Below, piece after piece: positions 3,348-30,155 of a stretch of 30,155 nucleotides of DNA. The DNA lies in IMG/VR virus record IMGVR_UViG_3300047550_001356, positions 1 through 30,155 of that record; one strand, given 5' to 3'. How positions within the stretch are numbered: position 1 is the first letter of the stretch; each line of letters opens with the position of its first letter. The stretch comes from a virus. The notes below the pieces were generated by a model that was not told where the DNA came from, did no database searches, and was given only the letters and a program-made list of their open reading frames with translations. The translations under genes were made by a program, and so were the position numbers.

Positions 3348-4771
3348 TACATGTTATAGATCTTATAAGAAAAGTTAATTACATAACAGAAGCAACAGAA
3401 GCAGAAACTACTGGCCATATGACACACATTTCTGATTGGAAACTGTATGGCAATTCTATGGAAGATCTAGAACACGCAGAAGCAATGCATAAATTTATGA
3501 ATGGTCATGAAACACCAGGACACACCGTGTCCTGGAAAATAGATGGAGAGACTAGTTTAACCTTTGGTAAAAAACATGATGGTAGACACTTTGTTGCATA
3601 TAAAAGTGCAAAGAATCATTTCCACACACCAGAAGAAATAGATGCAGCAGGAGTGCCTTGGGCAGAAGCTGGTAAAAAATTGTTAAAATATGTAACAGAA
3701 ATGAACATCAAACCAGGTCATGTATTTCAAGGCGATCTACTATGGACTAATCGTGATAAAGAAATTCACGATGGAACACATATTAAACCAAATACTATTC
3801 CATATAAACCAACTCATCATGATGTTGGTATTGCTGTTCATAGTCAATATGAAATGGATCACGATGGAACATTAAATAGAATCACGAATGCACCAGATGT
3901 TTCGCAAATTCAACATCCAAAAGTATTTGCACCCGATCTACAAATCAAACCTGGTCAAGTCATGCTTACCAGAGAACGAAACAAGGCAGTCGGGGAATCA
4001 CTTGCAAAAGCAAGAGAATTGATGACTCCCGAAGTTCAAGAATATACAAATTCACTTGCAAATAACAAAAATATGCAAAAGTTTATGCAAGAGTATACGA
4101 ATGAAGTGGTTGCAACAACAGGTAAAAGAGATCTTGAATCTTTAAAAACATATCTTCATAGACCAATCATAGGTGCAAAAACATCATATGGTTACATGGA
4201 AAAAGCAACTCAAAGAAATAAATCAGATAAGAGCAAAGCAGCACTTGTAAAAGAAATAGAAGATCATATCAATCAACATGGTAACAAAATATCAGCAATG
4301 TTCCAATCAATGCAACATGTTGCTGATGCAAAACATCAAATGCTGGATCAATTCAAAGCACATGGACACACAGCACCAATTCAAGTTCATGGTGGTGGGG
4401 AACATGAAGGCGTTGTATCGGCATTTGCAAAACCAAAACCAGGTTTAATTCGTGGAATTATTGGTCGTCTTGCAAAACTTACAAGAGAGGGAATATCTGG
4501 ATTCAGTGCAAGAAATCGCAGAAGAGGTGTAGAAAGAGGGTTCACAAAAGAACGCGAAGTACCTCATCCAGAAGTTCCTTTCGTTGATCATACCGAAAAT
4601 ATTAAAGAAGAAATGGCAGTTGGATCTGGTGCTGGTCTTGCAGGACTTGGTGGACCAAAAGATGTTGCAGTTCCTGTTGAAGCACAGAAGCGTTATACTC
4701 GCTCTGGTCCAATGAGAAGAAAAAGAAACATCGTTGAATCGTTTTTAAACTCCAAGAATCTCATGATATAA
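3344..4771 (+). CDS. DUF6267-like protein with nucleotidyltransferase/ligase-like motif
   Basis: A 475-residue protein. Residues 59-75 contain VSWKIDGETS, fitting the covalent nucleotidyltransferase motif I (K-x-D-G; candidate lysine K65). It is followed by a YKSAKN segment (~residue 86) and then FQGDLLW (128-134), in the place where ligase-fold enzymes carry a beta-strand acidic motif. IKPNTIPY (147-154) comes next. This order is shared with a widespread T4-like cyanophage family that I know as DUF6267. The C-terminal ~200 residues are helical, Gly-rich and basic, and unrecognised. The start is set by the ATGA overlap with the previous stop (AAGAGAA upstream). The 3' end overlaps the convergent RuvC-like gene by 27 nt. 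A DNA/RNA ligase or capping-like activity is inference; the known family has no assigned reaction that I am aware of. Confidence 0.6.
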   Translation: MIHVIDLIRKVNYITEATEAETTGHMTHISDWKLYGNSMEDLEHAEAMHKFMNGHETPGHTVSWKIDGETSLTFGKKHDGRHFVAYKSAKNHFHTPEEIDAAGVPWAEAGKKLLKYVTEMNIKPGHVFQGDLLWTNRDKEIHDGTHIKPNTIPYKPTHHDVGIAVHSQYEMDHDGTLNRITNAPDVSQIQHPKVFAPDLQIKPGQVMLTRERNKAVGESLAKARELMTPEVQEYTNSLANNKNMQKFMQEYTNEVVATTGKRDLESLKTYLHRPIIGAKTSYGYMEKATQRNKSDKSKAALVKEIEDHINQHGNKISAMFQSMQHVADAKHQMLDQFKAHGHTAPIQVHGGGEHEGVVSAFAKPKPGLIRGIIGRLAKLTREGISGFSARNRRRGVERGFTKEREVPHPEVPFVDHTENIKEEMAVGSGAGLAGLGGPKDVAVPVEAQKRYTRSGPMRRKRNIVESFLNSKNLMI

Positions 4772-5299
4772 TTGTTTGCATATATAAAAACAATCTACTA
4801 TATCACTGACTGGACTTCCAATCAAAGTTTTATTTGGTGTTATCATTGTTTGCAAATCCATGCCAGTTTCTTTATAAAATGAATTAAACATCATTTGCTT
4901 ATCTGCATTTCCTTTTCCAGTTGCCAATTTCTTTACAACTGTTGGTTCTATTATATCAACTGGTATTGATGCTTGATAGAGTTTATATTTTAATACTCCA
5001 GTATTTTCAGCAATATTAAATACTCTACCAGTTGCATTATAAGCATAACCCTCTAGAGCAATTCGTGAGCAACCTATAGCGGTTCTCATCACCCAATCAG
5101 ATATTGATCCATATCTTTCACAATCTCCGTCATAATCATCAAACAACTCCCCGTGTATATTTCCATGAAAAGTAGTAGCATATTTTTTTGTATCTGTTAA
5201 ATAGTAAAAAGAACAATTATTAAAATTAAATTTATTATTTGTATTGAATACACAAATTGCTGGACCATTCAGAGAGTAATCTATTCCTGCTATATGCAT
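4745..5299 (-). CDS. RuvC-like Holliday-junction resolvase
   Basis: A 184-residue protein with the RNase H/RuvC fold signature. An N-terminal GIDYSLNG strand carries the first Asp (D7). IALEGYAY (~residue 80) carries the Glu, followed by the RVFNIAENTGVLK helix typical of RuvC. A C-terminal SPVSDIVDCFYI provides the last Asp residues. Length fits bacterial and phage RuvC-like resolvases. It would cut branched replication or recombination intermediates before packaging, the job done by endonuclease VII in T4; gp49 is not seen in this window. The gene stands alone downstream of a strong terminator, so it needs its own promoter. A CTAAATAG box 5 nt upstream of the ATG resembles a T4-type late element but is very close. 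The 3' end overlaps the convergent + strand gene. Confidence 0.8.
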   Translation of the reverse strand: MHIAGIDYSLNGPAICVFNTNNKFNFNNCSFYYLTDTKKYATTFHGNIHGELFDDYDGDCERYGSISDWVMRTAIGCSRIALEGYAYNATGRVFNIAENTGVLKYKLYQASIPVDIIEPTVVKKLATGKGNADKQMMFNSFYKETGMDLQTMITPNKTLIGSPVSDIVDCFYICKQLYHEILGV

Positions 5300-5316: not shown

Positions 5317-5342
5317 AAAAAGGGGTCTTTCGACCCCTTTTT
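5317..5342 (-). terminator. rho-independent terminator after the FtsZ-like gene
   Basis: A perfect 11-bp stem (AAAAAGGGGTC paired with GACCCCTTTTT) with a 4-nt loop that reads GAAA on the minus strand. A T-rich run follows on the minus strand. It starts 3 nt past the stop codon of the FtsZ-like gene and separates it from the RuvC-like gene. The A/T flanks make it potentially bidirectional. Confidence 0.9.
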
Positions 5343-5344
5343 TA

Positions 5345-6535
5345 TCACTCAAATGGATGTTTTTCATCAAAATATTTTTCACTTATATTCATCTTTAATT
5401 GTTCTAATCGTTTAATTGGAACTTTAAGACCAGAAACTAGTGTGTACAATCTCAATGATGGTTTATCATCCTCGTATATGCCTCTGTGAAGGGTTGCCTT
5501 TGGACATAATGACGATAGGGTGTCAAATCCATAAGATAGGTTATCCATCAATCCTGGTGTATTTTCCATGATTGCTTTTCCACCAACTGCGCAACATGCA
5601 GCAAAAGTTGCTTCTGATATATCAAGTTCAGCAAGAAGAGTTTTATCCATATTACTTTTTACTGATTTTGAAATTTCTGTCTCATTAGCAGATTTTGGTG
5701 CTGGTTTATTTTCTTGTATATTTAATTTAGAAACTCCCATAACCATCACCCCACCACAACGAATAGTTGTTGCGTAATCAGTAGGATCAAAAGATGTATA
5801 TTGTGATGGATGTTTTGACAGCACATTAAAGATATGAAATAATCCAGAAACTGTATTATTGATTGTTGACCAGAATTCTTTTACTGTAAGATTTGTATAC
5901 ATTTTTTCAATTCTGGCATTATCAAGTATAACAAGTGGAGATATTTCTTTTCGTTCTGCTTGTCCACCAATTTGCTTTAATACTCTATATGCATTATATG
6001 AAACTTTTGGAGATGTTGCTTCTCCTCTAGTTGGAAGTGACATAATAACTCCGACACGCTCTTCTGGTCTATCATGCCCTATAAATTTCATATATTTTTT
6101 AGCAATATCAACAAGAACTAACGAAGATCCAGAACCACTACCACCACCAGCACCTATACAAACCATTATATGATCTATCTTAGTGCCATAGACTCTACGC
6201 ATCATATCAAATATCTCTTGCTTATATTTAATTGCAGCATTTGCCCCGCGCTCCATATCTTTACCAGCACCCTCTTCTCCTATATCAAGAAGAAGTTTTT
6301 GTATATCTGGAATATCAAGAAGCGCAAGATCTTGTTTTGATGTATTCACTGCAATGCATTTTTTATAACCACGATCATAGAATGCTTTCGCAAGTCTTCC
6401 ACCACCTTGACCAGATCCTATCCAAGCAAACACATGAGATCCACCACTTTCATCAGCAATCTCTTCCTGTACCGATTCTGGTTCTTTATAATCTTCTAAT
6501 TCTAAATCTGGTATTTCTAAATCTGGAATATCCAT
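5345..6535 (-). CDS. tubulin/FtsZ-like GTPase
   Basis: A 396-residue protein with the FtsZ/tubulin GTPase landmarks in order. A Gly-rich GSGQGGGR loop is at 40-47, and NTSKQDL (64-70) fits the FtsZ NTDAQAL position. The tubulin signature is GAGGGSGSGS (128-137). PLVILDNARI (~200-209) lies at the FtsZ NDRL site. SFDPTDYATTI (248-258) is at the T7 synergy loop, with both acidic residues spaced as in FtsZ NxDFAD but Ser replacing the Asn. Expected role: a polymerising GTPase that positions or transports phage DNA or virions, or interferes with host division. It differs from PhuZ-type proteins: the acidic segment is at the N terminus (first ~30 residues, with an IPDLEIPDLE repeat) rather than in a C-terminal tail. 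A strong AAGGAG ribosome binding site overlaps the stop of the upstream cohesin-like gene. The family is secure; the role is inference. Confidence 0.85.
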   Translation of the reverse strand: MDIPDLEIPDLELEDYKEPESVQEEIADESGGSHVFAWIGSGQGGGRLAKAFYDRGYKKCIAVNTSKQDLALLDIPDIQKLLLDIGEEGAGKDMERGANAAIKYKQEIFDMMRRVYGTKIDHIMVCIGAGGGSGSGSSLVLVDIAKKYMKFIGHDRPEERVGVIMSLPTRGEATSPKVSYNAYRVLKQIGGQAERKEISPLVILDNARIEKMYTNLTVKEFWSTINNTVSGLFHIFNVLSKHPSQYTSFDPTDYATTIRCGGVMVMGVSKLNIQENKPAPKSANETEISKSVKSNMDKTLLAELDISEATFAACCAVGGKAIMENTPGLMDNLSYGFDTLSSLCPKATLHRGIYEDDKPSLRLYTLVSGLKVPIKRLEQLKMNISEKYFDEKHPFE

Positions 6536-6544
6536 TTTATCTCC

Positions 6545-7903
6545 TTATGGTAATGTACCATTTATAGTTACACCACTTTGTGTTCCAAGAACACTCGACC
6601 CAGGAATATTGCTTCCTAGTGGTTGTGATTCGTCAGATACCCAAAGTCCAGCAAGACGAGGATCGTTCTTCTTTACGATATCAATCTTGGTAGTGTTGAA
6701 GTCATTTAGTACCTTGAAATTCAATGTAACGATCAACACCTCTCCAGTTCTATACGATCTGTCTCCAAGTTGGCACAACCAGTTGTGCATGGCATTTCCA
6801 TCTTTGGGTAGTGCTGCTTCATTGATTGCAGTTGGACCCACAAGCGGGAATCCATTTTCCATGCTTTTAGGTGCTCCTGTCTTGTCAATACTTACGAGTT
6901 CAAGAACCGTATTGTCCCATACAAAACTGGTAGCAACAGAAGCAATATACTGTGGTTTAGTCTCTGGTTTGACCATTATCTTTACAGGAACAGTATCTCC
7001 TGCCTTGAACTTGGTCACTGGTGCAGTCAGATAATGCGCAACTTTGTATATGGGTGGAGCACCGAACATAATCTGCTCACCCTCGGATCGTGTTTCACCA
7101 AGCACATTTGTACCAACAGTTGGACTACCATCAACTTTGGTTGTGATGGTTGTGCCTTGATATGTTGTGAGAGGAAGAATACGAATGAACGCTCTTTGCG
7201 ATCCCCAAGTAGGAAGATAATAGTCATCCTTGACTTTGAATTGCAGAGTACCTAACAAGCGATATCCACCCTGCCATAAGTATCCATCAAAATTCCATTG
7301 GTAATATTGTGGTTTGAGTGCTGGTGTACGGAGTTCTGGTGCAGGAAGAATCTGTGCGTGATATAGAACCAAACCATCACCAAGTGGCGTAATTTTTGTT
7401 TTGCTTGCATCCATTACAGCAGGATCAAATCCAATTCCATTTGCTCCAACGGGCAACAGTTCAAGACGAGTATGATCGTACTGAACAACCACATCAGAAC
7501 TGCGATACACGCTCCATTTGTATACCTGTCTCTGAACTCCATTAAGAGTCATCGTCATTGGTGGAGGAGTCAGTGGCATCGCAAGAATGTTTGCCGTGAT
7601 GATTGAGTCCTTGAAACCATACTGTCCGTTCTTCACTCCACCATTCCATGCAACTTGCGCCCATCCCGACTCCAAAAACAGACGATACTTGATCGCAGGA
7701 TCAATGAAGTATGGAGTATATACAAATGCTGGTGGCACAGGAACCAACTGAATTGTCCCATCTGGTTGAGAAACCTTTGTTGGTGGCACTGGAGCTGAAT
7801 TTACTGGACTTGTAGTTGGTGTCGTACCTGGCACTGTTTGCGCTAACGCTGAAAATGAAATAATAAATGTAAATAATAAACTAAATAAATTTTTAATTTT
7901 CAT
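6545..7903 (-). CDS. exported protein with two cohesin-like domains
   Basis: A 452-residue protein with a clear signal peptide: MKIKN, a hydrophobic core to about residue 20, and likely cleavage after SALA. A Pro/Thr/Ser-rich linker (~22-60) follows. I see two beta-rich domains, roughly 95-275 and 285-452. Each contains a cohesin-type strand (VVVQYDHTRLELL at ~138-150; SFVWDNTVLELVS at ~326-338). Each ends in a similar VLG-plus-Gly/Thr segment, consistent with an internal duplication. Cohesin-like folds bind protein or carbohydrate partners at cell surfaces or in the periplasm. Base composition is clearly richer in G+C than the flanking genes (sampled lines ~40% against ~17-33%), which suggests separate acquisition. 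It sits between the nuclease (11-nt overlap) and the FtsZ-like gene. Export is well supported; the cohesin assignment is moderate, and an Ig-like or other beta-sandwich is an alternative. Confidence 0.6.
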   Translation of the reverse strand: MKIKNLFSLLFTFIISFSALAQTVPGTTPTTSPVNSAPVPPTKVSQPDGTIQLVPVPPAFVYTPYFIDPAIKYRLFLESGWAQVAWNGGVKNGQYGFKDSIITANILAMPLTPPPMTMTLNGVQRQVYKWSVYRSSDVVVQYDHTRLELLPVGANGIGFDPAVMDASKTKITPLGDGLVLYHAQILPAPELRTPALKPQYYQWNFDGYLWQGGYRLLGTLQFKVKDDYYLPTWGSQRAFIRILPLTTYQGTTITTKVDGSPTVGTNVLGETRSEGEQIMFGAPPIYKVAHYLTAPVTKFKAGDTVPVKIMVKPETKPQYIASVATSFVWDNTVLELVSIDKTGAPKSMENGFPLVGPTAINEAALPKDGNAMHNWLCQLGDRSYRTGEVLIVTLNFKVLNDFNTTKIDIVKKNDPRLAGLWVSDESQPLGSNIPGSSVLGTQSGVTINGTLP

Positions 7904-9445: not shown

Positions 9446-10189
9446 TTAGAACTTAAATCCGACACCGAAAGAAACTACAGTGTCCATATCCTCAGCATCT
9501 AGATCATCATTAAGAATGAAGTCAACTCCACCATGAAGATCAATATTATTTGCTAGTTTGTATGCAACTGCTGGACCTGCAGTGATTGTGCTTTCGCCAT
9601 CAGTGTAATATTGACCAACATTTGCTGCTACAGTGAATACATCACTCGCCTTGTACTTCAGGGTAGTGATTCCTTCAAAAATATTGTCAGAAACAAATCC
9701 ACCAAGGACTGGAACATAAGTGTAATCATCAACAAGATCATACTTTACAGTCTGTGAAAGTGAGAACGAATCCCATTCATATCCGATGTTTCCACCAAAA
9801 GTAAAGACTGTTTCGCTTGATGAGTAATCCCCGCCGAGAGGAATTCCAACACCAGCAATTAGATCCACAGAAAGTTTACCAAATGTTGCAACATTTTGAA
9901 GAGTAAAAGTTACATCAACATCGCCAACTCCAGTTGCAGAATTAATAAAAGTTGCTTGATTATAGACTGGAAGTGCAACATCTACCTTAATGTTATCATC
10001 TAGTTTAAAATCAAGGTTCGTGTTCCATTGAACAATTTGACCATTATCAAAATTATAAAAAGATACATTCTCCACAAGATTCATCTTGAATGTATCACAC
10101 TTTGTTGGTTGAACTTCCTGCGCAACAACAAAAGTGTTTGTGAAAAGTGCTACAAATGCTACTAACGCTGTCTTAATTGAATTTTTCAT
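9446..10189 (-). CDS. outer-membrane beta-barrel protein with signal peptide
   Basis: A 247-residue protein starting MKNSIKTALVAF, with a hydrophobic core and an AxA-like cleavage site near residue 23 (VVAQ). The mature part alternates polar and hydrophobic residues in strand-like runs with Asp/Asn/Gly-rich turns. It ends VVSFGVGFKF, a terminal Phe with aromatic/hydrophobic alternation as in BAM-recognised barrels. This implies export to the outer membrane of a Gram-negative host. Possible roles are changing host permeability for nutrients, blocking a receptor (superinfection exclusion), or mimicking a host porin. A strong AAGGAG ribosome binding site is present, 9 nt from the NrdJ stop. A strong terminator follows. 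Localisation is well supported; the role is open. Confidence 0.75.
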   Translation of the reverse strand: MKNSIKTALVAFVALFTNTFVVAQEVQPTKCDTFKMNLVENVSFYNFDNGQIVQWNTNLDFKLDDNIKVDVALPVYNQATFINSATGVGDVDVTFTLQNVATFGKLSVDLIAGVGIPLGGDYSSSETVFTFGGNIGYEWDSFSLSQTVKYDLVDDYTYVPVLGGFVSDNIFEGITTLKYKASDVFTVAANVGQYYTDGESTITAGPAVAYKLANNIDLHGGVDFILNDDLDAEDMDTVVSFGVGFKF

Positions 10190-16769: not shown

Positions 16770-17921
16770 TCAACCAAATAGGTTTTCTAGTGTAGACTTT
16801 CGCTCTGTTGACCACCCAATAGTATCTAGAATAGTTGTCAGAGGATCAATAAAAGATTTCTCAAATTGAACTTTAGAATCAATATAATCTTTTAGATCAA
16901 ATTCTTTGGGAAGAGTATTTGGAAAAGAAATTACCTGATCTTCTCCCCGTGATCCACCAAGAGGATTTGGTTTCTTGAGAATAAGATATTTGATTTTATC
17001 CCCCTCTCCAATCTTCTTGTACTTCTTTCCCAACTTAAGTTTATCAAGATAATGATTGTAGATCAAAGCACCCTTGACTGCAATGGGTGTTGACTTCTTA
17101 TATATTGTATTAGCATCAAAATATTTCTTCATGCCATTAACACTGCGAGGAAATGCCATTTGATCTGGAGGTAGTGCATAGAATTCTTCCCTGCACTTCT
17201 CAACAAAATCAATCAGTTCACTCTCAGTGCCATTCATGGTGATATTGATTGCTGTCTTCAAATGTTTACGAACAAACTCAGGAGTTGAACTGCGTGTTGT
17301 TTCAATGCCCTTAATCTTGAGTTTTGGTTCATTATAACGAACGCCTTCAGAGTCAAGCACATTGAGCATGTATCTTTTCTTTGCAGTCCATATTCCACGG
17401 TCAGCAATGACCTCTCTGCCCATCTGCATACGGTTTTCGTATGCATTCATCTTTGTTGCAAGTTCTTTAAACTTCTTATCAATGAACGGTAGTATAATTT
17501 CCTCTGCTGCTTTGTTCAAAAAATCAACAATTGTTTTTGTTTCTGGTTTTGATACTTTTGTTTCACCATCAAACATCGAAACAGATGGATATACCTTCTC
17601 AACAAGACCATTCAAACAAAGATAAACAGAGTCTGTATCTGATGCGATAACATAATCAACATCATTAGTTCCTACTGCTTTGTTAAGATACTTATTAAGT
17701 TCCTGACCAATCCATTGAATTGACAACTGACCCGACAGAGTAATTGCCTCTGCGAGTTCAGTTGAATAATATCTAAAGTATTGATTGCCTATCGCACCAT
17801 ATGCAGAATTTAGTTGAATCTTTCTTACAAGTTGAAAGTTATGATACTTAGAAATATCATTCTCTGTTTGCTTCTTCAACTCAATCAATTCTGCATTTGA
17901 TAATTTAGATAGGTCTTTCAT
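16770..17921 (-). CDS. family B DNA polymerase, C-terminal half (gp43B)
   Basis: A 383-residue protein starting at the ATG that overlaps the previous stop as ATGA; an upstream GTG (17936) is less likely. It begins just before polymerase motif [14 protein letters not shown] (K34, N38-S39). It continues with [10 protein letters not shown] (catalytic DTDS at 95-98) and the AKKRYMLN thumb-side motif (~180-187). It ends KSTLENLFG, matching the gp43 C-terminal sliding-clamp-binding tail. It lacks any exonuclease domain and motif A, both of which are on the other half at 20634-22115. The two must assemble to make an active polymerase. This is a split gene rather than decay, because both pieces have their own starts and intact motifs and together cover the family's length. 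Confidence 0.93.
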
Positions 17922-18163
17922 AGTTTTTGTTTCCACACTCCATCTATAATTATACCGTAAGATGGAACATCGTCAACGGTTATCTTCTGCACTGAATAAC
18001 ATTGAGATGCTTTCATTCTCTTGCGAAGTTCATTTAATTCTTCTGCTGCAGCAACAGCATTTGTTTTCTTTTTGAATAGCAAAAGACCCTTGCGGGCTTC
18101 ACCCGAAGAGTCCTTAATATTATCCATTACAAACTGTTTAGTCTCTGTGATAATTCCGTACAT
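17918..18163 (-). CDS. small hypothetical protein
   Basis: An 81-residue protein using the ATG at 18163, which overlaps the upstream stop (TAATG) with an AAGGG about 9 nt upstream; an ATG at 18172 is the alternative. The sequence looks like alpha/beta, with a basic helix (AEELNELRKRMKAS) and strands around it (YGIIT, SYGIIIDGVW). No family recognised. It lies just upstream of gp43B and is coupled to it by ATGA. Confidence 0.55.
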   Translation of the reverse strand: MYGIITETKQFVMDNIKDSSGEARKGLLLFKKKTNAVAAAEELNELRKRMKASQCYSVQKITVDDVPSYGIIIDGVWKQKL

Positions 18164-18426
18164 TAAAACCATCCCTTCTTCTTCTCAGGACAATTAAAGA
18201 CGATACAAGAAGGTCGAGTCCATTCGTAGCGCATTACCCCATAGTAGTCGAGAACCACTACGCGACACACATACTTTGGCATGACGATTGTTCCACTTTC
18301 CCATTGCTGCTTGAAGAGTTCAGACAACTTACTGATCTCCTCCTCGTCATCCCCTGTATAGTCAGAATCGACATGGATGAGGAACTTTAGATTGCTCATT
18401 TCTTTTTGCTTTTGTGCTTCAGTCAT
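18163..18426 (-). CDS. small hypothetical protein (GC-richer island)
   Basis: An 87-residue protein with GGGAGAAC upstream of its ATG. It has an acidic DSDYTGDDEEE segment, several aromatic residues, and two Cys (residues 54 and 79), the second in a FNCPEKKKGWF tail. No known motif. Two sampled 60-nt lines are 45-47% G+C, well above the surrounding phage genes, which points to a different origin. The 5' end overlaps the upstream stop by 8 nt. Confidence 0.5.
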   Translation of the reverse strand: MTEAQKQKEMSNLKFLIHVDSDYTGDDEEEISKLSELFKQQWESGTIVMPKYVCRVVVLDYYGVMRYEWTRPSCIVFNCPEKKKGWF

Positions 18427-18733
18427 TCTTGTTCTCCCTCAGTTGCCTGTTCTCTTCCCAAAGTCGCTCAATAGTTTTGAGATCTTCCTCTGAACTAGCC
18501 TTTAGGAACTCCTTGAATTCCTTGACCGATTGTGGAAATCCTTCTCCCGAATAATTCTCGTAGCAATCCCAACCACGGGAGATGGCATAGTCTCCTGCTA
18601 GGAATCCCGTCAGATGATGAAAGCCACAGACCTCACGCCGTGCTTCATCACGCTCACGGGTCAGTTCCTCACACTTTGCAACAAGTGATTCAACATGGTC
18701 GATGAGTTCTTGCTTTGTAGGTTTCTTATTCAT
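18419..18733 (-). CDS. small coiled-coil protein directly after tRNA-Leu(CAA)
   Basis: The start is the ATG at 18733. A longer frame to 18859 reads through the tRNA-Leu gene and is not real. The 104-residue product has heptad-like helices at both ends (HVESLVAKCEELTRERDEAR; TIERLWEENRQLRE) around a Gly/aromatic-rich centre with two Cys and a FHHLTGF segment. The ATG lies 2 nt beyond the tRNA 3' end, leaving no room for a Shine-Dalgarno sequence. Sampled lines are 50-58% G+C, the highest in the window. Function unknown. Confidence 0.55.
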   Translation of the reverse strand: MNKKPTKQELIDHVESLVAKCEELTRERDEARREVCGFHHLTGFLAGDYAISRGWDCYENYSGEGFPQSVKEFKEFLKASSEEDLKTIERLWEENRQLRENKND

Positions 18734-18735
18734 AA

Positions 18736-18817
18736 TACCAAAGGTGGGAATCGAACCCACATGCCGTAAGGCAACGGATTTTGAATCCGCCGCGTCTGCC
18801 AGTTCCGCCACTATGGT
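18736..18817 (-). tRNA. tRNA-Leu(CAA)
   Basis: An 82-nt class II tRNA. Acceptor ACCATAG pairs with CTTTGGT except for a T5·T68 mismatch. D arm contains GGCGGAACTGG. The anticodon loop is TTCAAAA (anticodon CAA, reads UUG; A36-A37-A38). A variable stem TGCC/GGCA is present. T arm is GTGGG/CCCAC with a TTCGATT loop. CCA is not encoded. Small ORFs abut it on both sides. Confidence 0.93.
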
Positions 18818-18818
18818 G

Positions 18819-19064
18819 TCATCTTCCGCGCAATTGAAATTCAAGTGCAGCAATATCACTATTTGCAGTAAATAATTTTTGTTTTAATAAATTATTTTCA
18901 TTTACTAATTGCTCAATATAAGATTCCAACTCTCTAACTCTAGATTCAACTTCACTTCTATTTACATATATTCGATTATGTAATCGCTGCCAACTAGGAT
19001 GATCCCAAGTTGGAATTCGTAATTCGTTTTTGATTTGTTCTAAATTTAATTGATCTTCTGACAT
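18819..19064 (-). CDS. small coiled-coil protein directly after tRNA-Leu(TAA)
   Basis: The start is the ATG at 19064, 2 nt after the tRNA-Leu(TAA) 3' end; an upstream extension would lie in the tRNA. The 81-residue product ends in a clear coiled coil (VESRVRELESYIEQLVNEN, then LLKQKL and AALEFQL). An N-terminal TWDHPSWQRLHNRIY segment is aromatic-rich. There is no Shine-Dalgarno sequence. It is AT-rich, unlike the next small ORF, but has the same position relative to its tRNA-Leu. Its stop lies 1 nt from the 5' end of tRNA-Leu(CAA). Function unknown. Confidence 0.55.
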   Translation of the reverse strand: MSEDQLNLEQIKNELRIPTWDHPSWQRLHNRIYVNRSEVESRVRELESYIEQLVNENNLLKQKLFTANSDIAALEFQLRGR

Positions 19065-19066
19065 AA

Positions 19067-19150
19067 TGGGAATGGTGGGAATCGAACCCACACGGTCAAA
19101 TGACCGACAGATTTTAAGTCTGTTGCGTCTGCCTGTTCCGCCACAATCCC
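19067..19150 (-). tRNA. tRNA-Leu(TAA)
   Basis: An 84-nt class II tRNA. Acceptor GGGATTG pairs with CATTCCC except for a T5·T68 mismatch, the same position as in the other tRNA-Leu. The anticodon loop is CTTAAAA (anticodon TAA, reads UUA/UUG). The long variable stem is CGGTCA/TGACCG. The T arm is identical to that of tRNA-Leu(CAA), and the D arm differs by one base. No encoded CCA. Confidence 0.93.
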
Positions 19151-19153
19151 GAA

Positions 19154-19224
19154 CTACCCCGCCTAGATTCGAACTAGGAAAAAGAGATCCAAAGTCTCCT
19201 GTGATACCGTTTCACCACGGGGTA
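19154..19224 (-). tRNA. tRNA-Gln(TTG)
   Basis: A 71-nt tRNA. Acceptor TACCCCG pairs perfectly with CGGGGTA, discriminator G73. The anticodon loop is CTTTGGA (anticodon TTG, reads CAA/CAG). T arm is CCTAG/CTAGG with a TTCGAAT loop. No encoded CCA. The stop codon of the SpoU gene is immediately next to its 5' end, and tRNA-Leu(TAA) follows 3 nt later, so all are likely on one precursor. Confidence 0.93.
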
Positions 19225-19764
19225 TTAAAACACATTACTTGCGAGTGCGTACATTGCAATACCACTTGCAGTTCCCACATTCAAACTTCTCACGCTTCCA
19301 TACTGCTTAATATACAGTATGTCGTCACAAATGTCAATGAGTTCCTGGGGAAGTCCAACCTGTTCTTGTCCAAAGACAAGAATATGATGTGTATGTGAAT
19401 CCCAAATATAATTATTGATTGGACTTGCCCCAGGAATATTGTCAATACCAATGATCTTCACATTGGCATTGGAATCCCGTATAGACTTGATTTCATCATC
19501 AAGTTCAGATAGGGACTTGGTATGCTTGAAATGTGTGTAATGATGCGTACCTACTGTTCCTCGTCGGTCGTATTGCTTTGCACCATACAAGACTACCTTC
19601 TTAGCAAGAAACGCATTCGCATTACGAATAACTGTAGCAATATTGAAGTCATTATATAGATTACTGCAAATAACGGTAAAATTATTCCGCTTTGCATCAA
19701 GATCAGCAATAATTGCTTCATGCTTCCAATAATGGTAGTGGTCAATCACATTCCTCGTTTCCAT
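19225..19764 (-). CDS. SpoU-family RNA 2'-O-methyltransferase
   Basis: A 179-residue SPOUT (SpoU/TrmH-like) protein. Motif 1 is NDFNIATVIRNANAF (38-52, with N41 and R47). Motif 2 is VFGQEQVGLP (130-139). Motif 3 is YGSVRSLNVGTASGIAMYAL (155-174, with the knot Ser-Leu-Asn). It should transfer a methyl from SAM to a ribose 2'-OH in tRNA or rRNA. Its size is between TrmL (~157) and TrmH (~229). The gene is followed with no gap by tRNA-Gln and two tRNA-Leu genes, so phage tRNAs are the likely substrate. An ATG at 19785 would add 7 residues. I favour 19764, because the promoter -10 box lies between the two; the transcript would then be almost leaderless. Confidence 0.85.
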   Translation of the reverse strand: METRNVIDHYHYWKHEAIIADLDAKRNNFTVICSNLYNDFNIATVIRNANAFLAKKVVLYGAKQYDRRGTVGTHHYTHFKHTKSLSELDDEIKSIRDSNANVKIIGIDNIPGASPINNYIWDSHTHHILVFGQEQVGLPQELIDICDDILYIKQYGSVRSLNVGTASGIAMYALASNVF

Positions 19765-19770
19765 GTGTGT

Positions 19771-19799
19771 ATTATACCATAACATAAGTCATTCTGCAA
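19771..19799 (-). promoter_or_regulatory. extended -10 promoter for the SpoU/tRNA island
   Basis: On the minus strand TTGCAG is followed after 17 nt by TATAAT, with TG one base upstream of the -10 (TGGTATAAT). This is a near-ideal sigma70 extended -10 with a weak -35. The expected start of transcription is at or next to the SpoU ATG at 19764. It overlaps the 3' end of the upstream gene. Confidence 0.55.
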
Positions 19800-20637
19800 G
19801 AGGATTCCCATCAGATCTTACTTTTGCTCGTTCTTTATAAAAATGTTTTGGTTGCTTCTCTCCCTTTTCTACAAATTTCTCATACCAATATTTATTTCTT
19901 TGCAAATAAAGTTCATTATCAAATGATGGATATGTATCTTTTAATTCCCAATCCCCATGAACAGAATGTATATGCATTGGAATTATTTGAGCGAGAGGTG
20001 GCCACATATCTTTTCTAAATTCAAATTTTTCATTTGGTCTGTGAAATAAAATATTGGTCCATATGTCACCTGGAAACCAATCAGATTCTATGAATCCGCT
20101 TTGAATGTGCCATGGTCTATTATGGTGTTCATAACAATTTATAGGATTTGTTATAAATAAACACCAATTTTTTGGAGTTCTAAAAGATCTACCAGTCCAT
20201 AATTGCAACATGTTTATTTCAGTAAGTCCAAAATCATATTTTGATTGTGGTCGATCATAATTAAACACATTAGCATCTTTATCTTTATCTTTTAGTTCTT
20301 TAAAGATACATGCATCATCATCATAATATTTTTCATGAAAAGTGTATTCAAATTTTTTATCACCCAGATATGTGACATCAAAATCAAGTGCTGGATATAC
20401 CCACCATCCAATAGAATTTGCTGAAGTAAATGGTCCACAATATTTGTATGCTTGATCGTTCCATAATTTTTCATCTGATCCATTTTCTGATTTTAATTTT
20501 TTATTTGCTTTTTCTAATCGTATTCCTTGCGATGGATGAACATGCAGAACTTCAATAATCCGTTTTTCATCTAACTTTTGTTCTTCATTTATTTCATCTG
20601 GTTTTGCAAAAAATCCGCTAAATGGACATCCACTCAT
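19789..20637 (-). CDS. DUF6065-like protein (paralogue 2)
   Basis: A 282-residue protein that aligns by eye with the 259-residue protein at 22112-22891. Shared landmarks are an AYKYCGPFTSAN–IGWWV segment, a GRSFRTPKNW–LFITNP segment, IQSGFIESDWFPGDIWTNI (matching VETDWLPFTFTMNW), and WPPLAQIIPM (matching GEPICTFFPI). The C-terminal tail is basic (KHFYKERAKVRS). The family (known to me as DUF6065) has no assigned function. The N-terminal ~60 residues are an extra charged segment. It is coupled to gp43A by an ATGA overlap and separates that half from the SpoU/tRNA island. Confidence 0.6.
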   Translation of the reverse strand: MSGCPFSGFFAKPDEINEEQKLDEKRIIEVLHVHPSQGIRLEKANKKLKSENGSDEKLWNDQAYKYCGPFTSANSIGWWVYPALDFDVTYLGDKKFEYTFHEKYYDDDACIFKELKDKDKDANVFNYDRPQSKYDFGLTEINMLQLWTGRSFRTPKNWCLFITNPINCYEHHNRPWHIQSGFIESDWFPGDIWTNILFHRPNEKFEFRKDMWPPLAQIIPMHIHSVHGDWELKDTYPSFDNELYLQRNKYWYEKFVEKGEKQPKHFYKERAKVRSDGNPLAE

Positions 20638-22115
20638 AATAAACCTCTTTTCTTCATTTCCGCGTTAATGTCTTCTAGATTCTTTTCAGATTCAATCATC
20701 TTCTTTTTAAACATCTTACGATCTTTATACATCTTATCCATAAGTTCTGGAAGGAATCCACGAATATCTTTTCTGTATGTAGTTCCATTTGCAGCAACTG
20801 AGAGATTCTTTGATTTATATTTTTCTAATGCTTTTGTTGTGACTTCTCCACCTTTAAGAACTCCTTCTGGTGCTACAACTCCACGAAGACCATCTTCTGT
20901 CAAAGTCTCTGGAGAAATATTATACTGCATGATAAGATGTGGATATAGGGAATTTAAATCAAAACTAACAACCCAATTATATTTTCCTGGAACTGGTTCT
21001 TTCACATAAGCACCAGCATACTGCTCATCTTTTCTTCCTTTTCTCTTTGGTGGAATCATTATTCCACGATTTTTAAGATATTTGTAGATAATCACATCCC
21101 ATGTACGAACTTGAGAAAATACATCACTAAAATTAACACCTGCTGAATATGCAAGTGCCACTGCAAGTTCAATGAGTCTTAGTTTTTCTTCAAGTTTCTG
21201 AACAAGTTCAACATCTCGGATGTTATACTCAACAAACTTTTGAAAGTCTTTGCGATAAAACTCTGTAATGTTTTCATATTCGGAATAAGATAACTTTCGT
21301 TCTCCTAGTTCAACATATGCAATATGGTTCAATGCATATGATTCTTGATTTACATATGTAAATGTTTGATACACTTCATAATAATCAAGCATTGAAACAC
21401 CGACAATATCATATACTTGCTCTTCTTTGCCTGAGTTGCGTGTAATTTGACGATCCTTAAGTTTGCCCCAAGGAGACAATTTCTTTGCTGCTTTTGTTCC
21501 AAGCAATACCTTGATTCGATTTATAAGATAAGGAAAATCAAAAAATCTAATGTTCCATCCAGATACAATATCAGGATAATTTGCTGCAAAATAGTCAATA
21601 AATGTTTGCAGCATATCACTCTCATCTTCAAATTCAAAAACACGAACATCTTGTGTAGTTTTAAATCTACCAAGACAAAAAGTTGCTTTACCAGTTTTTG
21701 TGGATGAAATAGAAATTACATTGATACTCTCTTCTGGATTTTCAATTACAGGCCATCCTTTTTCAGAAGTTGTTTCAATGTCTATGTACATTATATCAAT
21801 CTTTGAAAAATCATAAAGCATATCACTCCCATATGTTTCATGTATAAAATGATACTCTGCTTGTATATCTCCATAGATATCAAAATTTTTAACTTCAGAA
21901 TAATTTTTGATAAATTCTTTATATGAATCAAATGAATCAAATTTTAATTCCGAGAGATATTCTCCAGAAATTGAAATTTGATCTGTTTTTGATTTGGAAG
22001 GTAAAAATACTGTCTGAACGAATGGACTCTCTAGATATTTTTTATTGCCATGATCATCAATTTCAGCATAAAGAATGCTGGAATAATCATAGTATACATT
22101 TGTGTAGAATTTCAT
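20634..22115 (-). CDS. family B DNA polymerase, N-terminal half (gp43A)
   Basis: The start is the ATG at 22115, overlapping the previous stop as ATGA; a TTG at 22136 is unlikely. The 493-residue protein contains the 3'-5' exonuclease: Exo I YIDIETT (D112, E114), Exo II NIRFFDFPYL (~188-197) and Exo III YNIRDVEL (D301). It then has polymerase motif A SFDLNSLYPHL (D386). It stops in a charged helical stretch (KKKMIESEKN, ending MKKRGLL), in the fingers region before motif B. Motifs B and C are in the gene at 16770-17921, about 2.7 kb downstream. The split falls between catalytic motifs, so this half alone can at most be an exonuclease. Confidence 0.93.
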   Translation of the reverse strand: MKFYTNVYYDYSSILYAEIDDHGNKKYLESPFVQTVFLPSKSKTDQISISGEYLSELKFDSFDSYKEFIKNYSEVKNFDIYGDIQAEYHFIHETYGSDMLYDFSKIDIMYIDIETTSEKGWPVIENPEESINVISISSTKTGKATFCLGRFKTTQDVRVFEFEDESDMLQTFIDYFAANYPDIVSGWNIRFFDFPYLINRIKVLLGTKAAKKLSPWGKLKDRQITRNSGKEEQVYDIVGVSMLDYYEVYQTFTYVNQESYALNHIAYVELGERKLSYSEYENITEFYRKDFQKFVEYNIRDVELVQKLEEKLRLIELAVALAYSAGVNFSDVFSQVRTWDVIIYKYLKNRGIMIPPKRKGRKDEQYAGAYVKEPVPGKYNWVVSFDLNSLYPHLIMQYNISPETLTEDGLRGVVAPEGVLKGGEVTTKALEKYKSKNLSVAANGTTYRKDIRGFLPELMDKMYKDRKMFKKKMIESEKNLEDINAEMKKRGLL

Positions 22116-22891
22116 TTGTTTGGATCCAAGCAACAATTATCATAACATGGTTCATATTCTATCGGAGATGAATTAATATATTCAAACTCACTTGCCTTTA
22201 TAATATTTTGATGTCTTTCAAATTTAGTACCATTTTTATACTGTCCACGAAGATAATCTCTTTGTCCTTTATTTCCATTTGTCTTTAAATTAGCATTATA
22301 CTGCTGTCTTGAATTTGCCCATTGACCATACTGTGAATGTAGTTCTTCATTATCCTTTATGGATCGTGATTCTGCTTTCCATTGTTCTAAATATCCTCTT
22401 TCTATAGGAAAGAATGTACAAATTGGTTCCCCTTCTTCAAATTTAACTTCATAGTTTTCTTCTGTTATTTTCCAATTCATGGTAAATGTAAAAGGTAACC
22501 AATCAGTTTCTACTATTCCCTCTAATGCAGTTATTCCTCTCTTTGGATTATTTGCTGGACCCTTTACATATAAGTTATGATTCTCTTCAGTTTGTATCAA
22601 AAAACCAAGACTGAATGTAATAACTCCACTTCCAAAGTGAGATGTAACAATATGCTGATTGTATGGAGAATTGCTGTTTAGTTTTATGGAAATGTCACTT
22701 AGATTTCTTCCTCCATTCCAAATTGCACTAAAAGAAAATGGTATGTTTACTGTCCAACCATATCCATTTGCAACTGTCAATGGAAGACATCTGTATGCAA
22801 AAGCATCATGAGTCTCATCCATCCATTTTCTCTTTTTATTTGGAATAGAAATTGGAAGTGGATTATAAATCCTATATTGTGTAATTTTCAT
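22112..22891 (-). CDS. DUF6065-like protein (paralogue 1)
   Basis: A 259-residue protein with the features of the family I know as DUF6065. CLPLTVANGYGWTV is near residue 36. HFGSGVITFSLGFLIQT is in the middle, followed by LYVKGPANNPKRGI. ALEGIVETDWLPFTFTMNW comes next, then EEGEPICTFFPI. The C terminus has a basic RQQYNANLK–RDYLRGQYK region and ends in a CYDNCC cluster. No catalytic motif is evident; it may bind a ligand or assist an enzyme. It is 2 nt from the Nmad1-like gene and coupled to gp43A by ATGA. A paralogue lies on the other side of gp43A. Confidence 0.7.
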   Translation of the reverse strand: MKITQYRIYNPLPISIPNKKRKWMDETHDAFAYRCLPLTVANGYGWTVNIPFSFSAIWNGGRNLSDISIKLNSNSPYNQHIVTSHFGSGVITFSLGFLIQTEENHNLYVKGPANNPKRGITALEGIVETDWLPFTFTMNWKITEENYEVKFEEGEPICTFFPIERGYLEQWKAESRSIKDNEELHSQYGQWANSRQQYNANLKTNGNKGQRDYLRGQYKNGTKFERHQNIIKASEFEYINSSPIEYEPCYDNCCLDPNK

Positions 22892-26897: not shown

Positions 26898-29800
26898 TTA
26901 ATATGTTCCACAATCAATTATTGTACCTTCTGATAGTGTCTTATTATATAGTGTTTGTTGTGGTAGTTCAAAATAATCAACATTAACAGTCTTGGTGTGA
27001 TATGATGAATCATTTGCTGCAACTGCTGATGATCTTGCTGATCTACCAGTATCAACAACAACTATTCCATTTCCTCCAGTTATACCAGAGTTTAATCCAG
27101 TGTATCCTGGATCTCTAAATGAAATCAATCTTCCAAATCCATCTTGACCAGCAGAGTCATTATATCCGATAATAAATGGATTTGGAGATCCAGAATATGT
27201 TATTGTGTTAGTTCCTGCATTAAATGTAACACCAGTCTTGAATCCTACAGTTCTGTTTATAGCACTAGTATTGGGTTCGACTCTTAGTGCTGCATTTGCA
27301 CCAAGAACTATAGTTGGCGTTATTCCTGAATTTGGTCCACTTATATCAAATTGACCACTGAATCTAGCATTTGTTACAGGAGTAGTGGTTGATGGTGAAC
27401 TTGTTTGAGAAGATCTAAGAGATACAACAGGGGTAGTAGCATTATCAGATGTAATACCAACATTATTAATTGCCTCAAACTTAGCATGACCAAGAACTCC
27501 ACCATCAATTACATTATTTGTAATACTAGTAATATTTCTAATGTATTTAAGTGTTCCACCATCAGATGCATCTATTCCAAAAAATCCTATTTTATCGCTT
27601 GTTACACCTTCAGCAGCAGTTTGCTGAATAGGACTATTATATGCCGTATCTCTATGGAATAATATAAAACCTTTATCAAAGTTGTTTGAGGATTGATTAT
27701 GACCTACAGCATTCGGTCCAGAAGCACCACCAATATAAACTAAAGGACTCTCAGTAGAAAGATTATCTACATTGAAGAATGCTGTCTTTCCATGAACATA
27801 AATACTGCCAGTTACAATCAAATCTCCACTTACTCCACCTGGAGGAGAACCACCTGGAGGAGAACCACCTGGAGTAGTGTACAAGCAACCCGTGCTTGCG
27901 TCAAATATATTTCCTCTCAACCATATATCTTTATGCACATAAACATTATCATGCGCAAGGATGTTTCCTTTCATTATAATAGAACCATCTTTGCTTATTC
28001 TTTCTCCAAATTCTCCTGTATCTTGAAGAGTTAGAAGATTGAATTCGTTGTTTGTGCCAAGTAAAGCACATCCTGGAAGACCTGGTTCTGCCATATTATC
28101 AACGCAGTTACCATTTACGCATCCATATACTTGAGTTTGATCAACTCCTGCTGATCTTTTTCCATCAATTAATACCTGTAGATAAGAAGAAAGAGTTTCA
28201 TATGTTGGGAATGCATGTAGTCTTATTTGAGTATTAGATGCAGTATTTCCACTAAATGGATTTAATACCACAGGAACGCCAGGAGGTCCACCACCACCAG
28301 TGTTAGTGACCTTTCCAGGACGAGTTTGAAGAACTAAAACATTTCCAGGCTCAGAATTTGCTTTATTTATATTAGCATATCCATTACCAAAATTTGCCCT
28401 CCAAAGACCACTACCAGCCCATGGTGTATTAGTTGGATTACCGTTTAATGGTGCGGGAATATATCCTCCACCAAGATCCCACATCAATGTCATACCACTT
28501 TCAATTACATCAGCAACAACTCTATTGTATTCTGGATATGGATATTCTTGGGTTAAGAAAGAACTTCGGTCAAATGGTCCTAATGGATATGGATATGGAA
28601 CATATGTGCCCAAACCAGAATCTGATTTTGTTCTTGCCAGAGTTGGTAATACTATTTCTGATCTTGGGAATGACTTACCATATAGATCTGTTGCTGGATA
28701 TCTATTCGGAAAGAATTTTGCTGTTGGTAAATATATTTTACTAGTTGGACCAATATATATTGTTCCATCTTTTGTTCCTTGTCCAGTTGTCTGTGATGAA
28801 GCAAATCCATATGCGGTTATACCAGTAATATTAACAAGACCAGTAACACCTTCTGCACTATATGCAGTTGAATAATCTTCATATGCATAATCTGCTTGCG
28901 CATGAACTATGGTTCCAGAACCTGCTACTATATTGGAAGAAATAAGAATATCTTGAGGATTTGGTCTAGTAATTACTATACCAGATCCAGATTTAATATT
29001 AACAGGACCAGACAATCCTCCTAAACTACTTCCACCAGATCCGAATGGTGTAAGTAAGTTGATACCAGTATTCCATATTAATAGTGTATCATTTCCAGAG
29101 CCCAACAATCCACCACACAAACCAATACCTCTACCAGCAAACATAGTCAAATTATCTGTATTAGATTGTGCTGATACTACCTGTGTTGCTGCTATATGTC
29201 CAGGCAATCCAGTAGAACCACCAAAATAAATATCTCCATCTACTGGTACTTGAGTGTATGTATTGTTAAATCCAGCATTTTTAATGGTAATATCTCTAAA
29301 TTGCTTACCAATATAACTAATATTAATATTGTTTGGATTTGATCCATCATGTAGAATTGATATATCGGTAGTAGCAGCAAGTTTAACTGGACCACTTAAC
29401 CCATTTGGAAGACCACTACTGCCAACTATACCAAAACTAGTAACACCACGATTTATAAATCTAAATGTATTACTCTGCGTGGCGGATGGATTTACTAGAC
29501 CTGGAGGTGCGGTCGGCATTCCAAATCCACTATCATTATATAATATTTCAATATTATATGCAGTAGATCCAGAACTAGCAAAAAAGTTTGAACTATTTTG
29601 CTCAAATGCTTGAGCAAGTGAATCTTGTGCCGCTTCTGTGAGTCCTTGTAGTTGAATAGCACCAACAGTAACTGTGCTGGGAACAGCATTAATCAAATGA
29701 CCATATGGATCAAAACTAAATCCCCACATTTGAAATCTATTGCTTGAATCAACTACATCATATCCACCAGCAGCATATATTGGAGAAGCGCCATGTCCTA

Positions 29801-30155
29801 TACTAACGGCATTTCTATTATCTAAATCTGTAAATGTGCTAGGGCTCTGACCAACTACTAGTGGACCGCTTCCAGCGACTATACCGATTAAATTTATGTC
29901 CTGTACCGCTCCACTAAATCCTTTGAGATTTTTAATTGGATTAATTAAAGTAATTCCGCCAGTAGCACCACCAATACCAGTAACACCGATATTTCTCAAC
30001 AACAAAGTTCTATTTGCATTATCAGCAGATACTAGAATACCACTATCGGCATTTAAAGTTAATCCATCTATTGCGCTATTTGCAAATATTCTTGTATTGC
30101 CAAACCAGTTACCAGTAACACCAATAGCAGTGAATCCCTTGATAACACCAGTATT
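26898..30155 (-). CDS. very large tail-fibre/structural protein, 5'-partial
   Basis: The frame is open to the right edge of the window (at least 1085 residues). The apparent start near 30005 is only a TTG, and in-frame coding continues past it (TRIFANSAIDGL and GILVSADNA upstream), so the true start is outside. The protein is Gly/Ser/Thr/Asn-rich. It contains repeats of the phage G(L/F)SG(P/A)V module (GFSGAV, GLSGPV twice). Further on are an SGDLIVTGSIYVHG segment, typical of T4-like structural fibre proteins, and a GGSPPGGSPPGG hinge. Several Cys-containing loops occur mid-protein. Expected to be a long fibre or baseplate-attached host-recognition protein. No catalytic motif seen. Confidence 0.75.
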   Translation of the reverse strand, partial: NTGVIKGFTAIGVTGNWFGNTRIFANSAIDGLTLNADSGILVSADNANRTLLLRNIGVTGIGGATGGITLINPIKNLKGFSGAVQDINLIGIVAGSGPLVVGQSPSTFTDLDNRNAVSIGHGASPIYAAGGYDVVDSSNRFQMWGFSFDPYGHLINAVPSTVTVGAIQLQGLTEAAQDSLAQAFEQNSSNFFASSGSTAYNIEILYNDSGFGMPTAPPGLVNPSATQSNTFRFINRGVTSFGIVGSSGLPNGLSGPVKLAATTDISILHDGSNPNNINISYIGKQFRDITIKNAGFNNTYTQVPVDGDIYFGGSTGLPGHIAATQVVSAQSNTDNLTMFAGRGIGLCGGLLGSGNDTLLIWNTGINLLTPFGSGGSSLGGLSGPVNIKSGSGIVITRPNPQDILISSNIVAGSGTIVHAQADYAYEDYSTAYSAEGVTGLVNITGITAYGFASSQTTGQGTKDGTIYIGPTSKIYLPTAKFFPNRYPATDLYGKSFPRSEIVLPTLARTKSDSGLGTYVPYPYPLGPFDRSSFLTQEYPYPEYNRVVADVIESGMTLMWDLGGGYIPAPLNGNPTNTPWAGSGLWRANFGNGYANINKANSEPGNVLVLQTRPGKVTNTGGGGPPGVPVVLNPFSGNTASNTQIRLHAFPTYETLSSYLQVLIDGKRSAGVDQTQVYGCVNGNCVDNMAEPGLPGCALLGTNNEFNLLTLQDTGEFGERISKDGSIIMKGNILAHDNVYVHKDIWLRGNIFDASTGCLYTTPGGSPPGGSPPGGVSGDLIVTGSIYVHGKTAFFNVDNLSTESPLVYIGGASGPNAVGHNQSSNNFDKGFILFHRDTAYNSPIQQTAAEGVTSDKIGFFGIDASDGGTLKYIRNITSITNNVIDGGVLGHAKFEAINNVGITSDNATTPVVSLRSSQTSSPSTTTPVTNARFSGQFDISGPNSGITPTIVLGANAALRVEPNTSAINRTVGFKTGVTFNAGTNTITYSGSPNPFIIGYNDSAGQDGFGRLISFRDPGYTGLNSGITGGNGIVVVDTGRSARSSAVAANDSSYHTKTVNVDYFELPQQTLYNKTLSEGTIIDCGTY
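27835..27874 (-). repeat. 15-nt tandem repeat coding a PPGGS hinge
   Basis: Two exact copies of a 15-nt unit (CCACCTGGAGGAGAA on the + strand) and a 10-nt partial third. It encodes GGSPPGGSPPGG in the large fibre protein. Each unit adds five residues, so slippage would change hinge length without a frameshift. Confidence 0.8.

Follow-up and report, generated by a model that had tools for sequence, protein, structure and literature searches.

A tubulin of T4-like phages with an acidic N-terminal tail, most likely a separate branch beside TubZ

Work on phage tubulins has so far concerned two groups, i.e., PhuZ, which is linked to the nucleus that jumbo phages form, and TubZ, which serves plasmid-like partition. 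TubZ belongs to the type III partition system TubZRC of Bacillus-type plasmids and some phages, and its members move DNA (PMC5322520). Its flexible C-terminal tail extends about 20 or more residues past the C-terminal helix; this tail touches the upper subunit and binds both TubR and TubY (PMC5322520). PhuZ carries an acidic C-terminal knuckle that supports protofilament stability (PMC3678025). It acts as a capsid carrier and in DNA centring, and it is not essential but raises the yield (PMC13282480). Bacillus phage G encodes a further such protein, gp138, which is annotated as FtsZ-like. No description of tubulins in T4-like phages was found in the literature searched, with subscription journals and preprints outside its range.

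Here, we analyse a tubulin gene in a 30,155-nt stretch of viral DNA (IMG/VR record IMGVR_UViG_3300047550_001356, positions 1 to 30,155; the window) together with its relatives (the family). TubZ is the closest match of the family in both fold and sequence and its likely sister branch, FtsZ and CetZ have superfamily, GTP-binding loops and general fold in common with it, and PhuZ, also a phage tubulin with an acidic tail, is a plausible functional parallel. A tubulin that is widespread in T4-superfamily phages of medium size and for which no partition locus was found would separate the 'phage cytoskeleton' from both PhuZ and TubZ.

The tubulin gene and its surroundings in the window

The open reading frame at 5345-6535 (minus strand) has an ATG start with an AAGGAG ribosome-binding site 5' of it and encodes 396 amino acids. 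The initial annotation took the product for an FtsZ/tubulin-like GTPase of a T4-like phage with recognisable GTP-binding and synergy-loop positions, and this holds on all points. The protein matches the Pfam Tubulin domain PF00091 (E=3.5e-11, 44.2 bits, cut-off 33), and its T1, T3, T4, T6 and T7 positions align with those of known tubulin families. In the alignment with TubZ, FtsZ and PhuZ, we find the T1 loop GSGQGGGR (aa 40-47, 6395-6418), T3 as GEEGAGKD, the T4 tubulin signature GAGGGSGSGS (aa 128-137, 6125-6154) and the T7 or synergy loop SFDPTD (aa 248-253, 5777-5794), with D250 and D253 of the latter invariant among 66 family sequences. A sequence search of the PDB returns B. cereus TubZ/RepX (4ei7) as top match, with 5e-16 for the single protein and 1e-20 for the family profile. 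This is also reflected in the AlphaFold2 models of the window protein (66-sequence alignment, pLDDT 87.3, pTM 0.87) and of a separately modelled clade B member (pLDDT 89.0, pTM 0.89): for both, Foldseek lists TubZ first, followed by CetZ and FtsZ, with 4ei7 as best match of the window protein. The gene is under purifying selection, i.e., dN/dS is 0.01-0.07 in those tubulin pairs where it could be computed, and the frame is thus more than a chance one. That is, the window encodes a genuine GTPase of the tubulin/FtsZ superfamily, and polymerisation is plausible given its loops.

With regard to the T7 loop, the Ser that had been noted in place of Asn is real, and throughout the family Ser or Thr occupies this position, which lies two residues ahead of the first Asp of T7. 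It is not distinctive, since the Asn is also lost in some TubZ, PhuZ and CetZ proteins. Read by eye in the alignment, Asn is present in Alicyclobacillus TubZ and phage G, while its place is taken by His in Planococcus TubZ, by Ser in Brevibacillus TubZ, by Arg in 201phi2-1 PhuZ and by Val in one CetZ.

PHROG matches to T4-type replication genes (DnaB-like helicase, primase, UvsX and a split gp43) confirm a T4-like phage as source of the window; the helicase is 61% identical to that of Methylophilales phage Melnitz and also matches cyanophages. The tubulin gene shares its strand with the replication genes, and no obvious late promoter is seen at it. Its upstream neighbour (6545-7903, minus strand) ends 9 nt before the tubulin start, and both probably belong to the same transcription unit. 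It encodes a 452-aa protein whose start resembles a signal peptide and which contains a cohesin domain (PF00963, 25.5 bits, cut-off 24.1). Directly after the tubulin stop, the sequence reads as a hairpin (GGGGTC-TTTC-GACCCC, 5322-5343) with an A run before and a T run after it, i.e., terminator-like on both strands. Beyond this hairpin follows a RuvC-like resolvase gene (4745-5299, minus strand; phrog_159, E=1e-24).

Some further features of the window were recorded. A cohesin domain, here just above its cut-off, is unusual for a T4-like phage. The gp43 DNA polymerase (16770-22136) is split into two ORFs, 20634-22136 and 16770-17936, and the roughly 2.7 kb that separate them contain other small ORFs. 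Proteins matching phrog_7084 (unknown function) occur three times, at 22112-22891, 19789-20637 and 9446-10189 (E of 3e-11, 5e-4 and 0.06, respectively), and two of them flank the split polymerase. Finally, a 1035-aa ORF with TTG start at 26898-30005 has no PHROG match.

Relatives and placement among tubulins

Three successive scans of IMG/VR, with the best 80 matches listed per scan, raised the set of contigs with relatives from 17 to 91 and then to at least 216. Among 84,980 bacterial and archaeal genomes (GTDB), 415 stretches fitted the search pattern and no relative was among them; the search thus gives no hint of a host. The 50,697 phage records of INPHARED yielded gp138 of Bacillus phage G as sole match, at 22% identity, for clade A and clade B queries alike. 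We distinguish clade A, which includes the window, clade B (most of L028-L081, on contigs that reach 190 kb), clade C (L073/L077) and clade D (L082/L199); between clades A and B, identity is about 50%. The largest clade B contig (G001, L084-L093, 190 kb) encodes a T4-type portal, an S77 prohead protease, a Pol III alpha polymerase, a Cpn60 chaperonin and RecA. The carrier phages are probably marine, since their nearest cultured phages are methylophage Melnitz and marine cyanophages.

To place the family, we computed a tree of 37 sequences (LG+C20 PMSF) that comprised FtsZ, CetZ, TubZ and PhuZ, the check that the initial annotation had proposed. The family forms one clade (100/99) and is placed inside none of the known families, host FtsZ included. 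It is sister to TubZ plus gp138 (98/95) and not inside the TubZ clade (98/95 and 96/94), with CetZ, PhuZ and FtsZ further out; PhuZ and FtsZ form one clade each (100/99), the latter without the family. In AU tests, grouping the family with phage G alone is rejected (p 0.003) and grouping it with PhuZ (p 0.031) or CetZ (p 0.037) weakly so, while a branch that has both the family and FtsZ on one side is not rejected (p 0.137). Given the long branches in the tree, TubZ is a likely but not a settled sister group. The suggestion that this phage tubulin forms a new branch is thereby upheld: the family most likely represents a separate branch, sister to TubZ and phage G, whereas a placement within FtsZ or PhuZ is not supported by the tree. 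It extends the FtsZ/tubulin tree by a deep branch, which in the collections searched was found only in viruses.

Profile and structure comparisons separate the family from each known group. The TubZ-type C-terminal domain PF22453 is matched by a clade B protein (L051, 27.9 bits, cut-off 26) and approached by a clade D protein (L082, 22.4 bits), and the window protein gives no match. No TubZRC locus was found: there is no TubR gene beside the tubulin, whose upstream neighbour encodes the cohesin-domain protein in the window and a protein with one transmembrane segment (TM) in clade B, and neither tubC iterons nor any other repeat array was found at the tubulin loci. Phage G gp138 shares the TubZ-side branch with the family, but its partner in the tree is a Pontibacillus plasmid protein (100/99), and it has no acidic N-terminal tail. 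Membership in PhuZ is rejected by the separate clade, by the PhuZ-type C-terminal domain PF22334, which 201phi2-1 PhuZ matches and the window protein does not, and by low structural similarity (TM only 0.49-0.56 for PhuZ-type proteins among the viral models in Foldseek). Moreover, PhuZ occurs in jumbo phages and the family in contigs of 190 kb or less. A host FtsZ acquired by a phage finds no support either, because the family lies outside the FtsZ clade and scores 46 bits against the FtsZ equivalog TIGR00065 (cut-off 295.2). For CetZ, the domain CetZ_C (PF21011) is matched by Halorussus CetZ and not by the window protein. The best viral model, A0A6J5RW92 ('FtsZ Cell division GTPase' of an uncultured Caudovirales phage; TM 0.79, 29% identity), is with 452 aa longer than the window protein, and the match is a structural one only.

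As a side observation, a tubulin-like protein of a Klebsiella grimontii plasmid (L213:1495-2943), i.e., from a Gram-negative host, falls into the TubZ group, where its branch is long.

The N-terminal tail and the C-terminal end

The first 19 codons of the window gene (6479-6535, minus strand) encode the acidic segment MDIPDLEIPDLELEDYKEP. The initial annotation had described it as an acidic IPDLE repeat at the N terminus. Its position and the two copies in the window are correct; the repeat as such is not conserved, as IPDLE occurs once in the other clades. The conserved unit is thus approximately [DE]IPxLx[IL]EDY..P. P9, E14 and P19 are the same in all 66 sequences, I8, D15 and Y16 reach at least 90% conservation, and the segment has a median of 12 acidic residues and 1 basic residue across the family. 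Residues 1-22 of the window model and 1-21 of the clade B model show pLDDT below 50, i.e., the tail is predicted to be disordered yet conserved family-wide. Between the window and contig L001, codons 1-19 differ by eight synonymous changes and no non-synonymous one, a count that is clean only in pairs without N-terminal extensions, since otherwise the extension is included and non-synonymous changes appear. A search for [IVL]Px[LIV]x[LIV][ED][DE] in the window and three contigs found the motif in no protein besides the tubulin.

The opposite end differs strongly. Both models show one helix of 9-10 residues beyond the last strand, and across the family a median of 15 residues follows that strand. 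This end is short and variable, basic in clade B (KRPAKRIEGLKKFLK) and mixed in the window. A long C-terminal helix or tail as in TubZ and PhuZ is absent from both models. That is, in contrast to TubZ with its flexible C-terminal tail and to PhuZ with its acidic C-terminal knuckle, the family carries its conserved acidic tail at the N terminus and, for clade B, a late-operon context. The FtsZ C-terminal peptide [DE]IPxF[LI]R is absent; DIPx-type similarity is seen only at the family's N terminus.

Gene context in clade B and possible functions

In clade B, the gene order is a 61-aa holin-like gene, fam4 (one TM), tubulin, fam6 (signal peptide and C-terminal TM), a Zn-ribbon-like gene, fam2, TerL and portal. 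Terminase, portal and prohead protease are part of the operon. The label holin-like is our assumption from a sequence pattern; no library match supports a holin or spanin identity of the clade B membrane proteins. An ACTA[CAT]TTATATCTAC-like element precedes the operon start in 30 of 38 distinct upstream regions (script count; mean 0.4 after shuffling), and several of the remaining eight show a displaced element by eye. In G001, its core CTATTTA is found 5' of 10 genes (1.2 expected), structural genes among them, and an ACTTGAC-type element is present at other genes, which are probably early. As the operon-start element also lies upstream of structural genes, we infer that the clade B tubulin is expressed late. 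G001 carries two distinct upstream elements, ACTTGAC-type and ACTATTTA-type, which suggests early and late gene classes. The T4 late box TATAAATA was considered for clade B and dropped: it is missing from nearly all upstream regions, which carry the different conserved element instead. Elsewhere, a T4 late-box-like candidate, AATAAATA or TATAAATA, is located 14-21 nt before the tubulin start in L013, L014, L015, L017, L026 and L073; its presence in three separate subgroups is suggestive.

Upstream sequence of at least 2.3 kb was available at 37 TerL loci, of which 28 contain the tubulin. The TerL of the other nine is at most 74% identical to the query. Three of these nine (L251, L253 and L255) have the holin-like gene, fam4, fam6, the Zn-ribbon-like gene, fam2 and TerL in order, with fam6 directly after fam4. 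The tubulin is therefore optional at the clade B site, i.e., gained or lost, and its membrane-protein neighbours are independent of it, which rules out fam4 and fam6 as obligate tubulin partners.

The reading we tentatively favour, and hold to be nearly an even call, is a cytomotive filament that forms late and acts on phage DNA or capsids. GTP-bound subunits would join head to tail into a dynamic filament, in which the T7 loop (D250, D253) of each subunit would complete the GTPase site of its neighbour. The acidic N-terminal tail may do the job of the TubZ and PhuZ C-terminal tails, i.e., contact the neighbouring subunit or dock cargo. Made late in clade B, together with terminase, portal and prohead protease, the filament would most likely position phage DNA or capsids inside the infected cell. 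A filament is made plausible by the intact tubulin domain and loops, the invariant T7 acidic residues and the TubZ filament structures that two divergent members' models both match best. The cargo is suggested by the sister TubZ, which moves DNA, and by PhuZ as precedent for capsid carriage and DNA centring; low dN/dS, strong tail conservation and the late-type operon of clade B fit as well. Against it stand the lack of a TubR-type adaptor, of iterons and of a long C-terminal helix or tail, the close relatives without the gene, and the location of the window gene on the replication strand with no obvious late promoter. It is possible, if somewhat doubtful, that the family stands next to PhuZ and TubZ as a third phage tubulin class, one that forms late filaments in T4-superfamily phages with contacts or docking via the acidic N-terminal tail.

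The initial annotation had also offered a host FtsZ inhibitor, and this was not borne out; we consider it unlikely. Such a protein would co-assemble with or poison FtsZ, or its [DE]IPxL tail would compete with the FtsZ C-terminal peptide for FtsA/ZipA/SepF-type partners, which would keep the cell from dividing before lysis. FtsZ is of the same superfamily, the tail (DIPTL/EIPDL) has the DIPx start in common with the FtsZ peptide (DIPAFLR/DIPTFLR), and division block is frequent among phages (PMC3961180, PMC10714956, PMC11897509). However, Leu and acidic residues stand in place of the key F[LI]R of that peptide, the published phage inhibitors found are small proteins, such as Icd of P1 with 73 aa (PMC11897509), and not full GTPases, and clade B places the gene in a presumably late structural operon. 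Use of the protein like TubZ in DNA partition, with the phage persisting plasmid-like, is very unlikely: TubZ is the nearest branch and its C-terminal domain is partially matched in clade B, but neither TubR gene nor iteron array is found and the clade B operon is shared with packaging genes.

Two more readings concern assembly and lysis. A non-polymerising or merely oligomeric GTPase, serving as switch or scaffold in assembly or packaging, appears quite improbable, as the acidic residues of T7 do not vary in the family, and in known tubulins these residues work across the polymer interface; moreover, FtsZ polymerises without a tubulin-type C-terminal helix. What speaks for it is that the C-terminal extensions stabilising TubZ and PhuZ filaments are missing (PMC5322520, PMC3678025). 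A filament that organises or times co-encoded lysis proteins would explain why the clade B tubulin lies between two membrane-protein genes and near the 61-aa gene, and small membrane-protein genes are found near the tubulin in L008 and L013, too. We judge this improbable as well, given that L251, L253 and L255 have these genes without a tubulin, that no holin or spanin was matched, and that none of these genes adjoins the tubulin in the window.

The question raised by the favoured late filament is its benefit to such a mid-sized phage, which the conserved N-terminal tail and the relatives with and without the gene at one site make directly testable. As a minor observation, a small CxxCH protein that looks like a cytochrome c is encoded at L028:3993-4364, in the cluster upstream of the tubulin.
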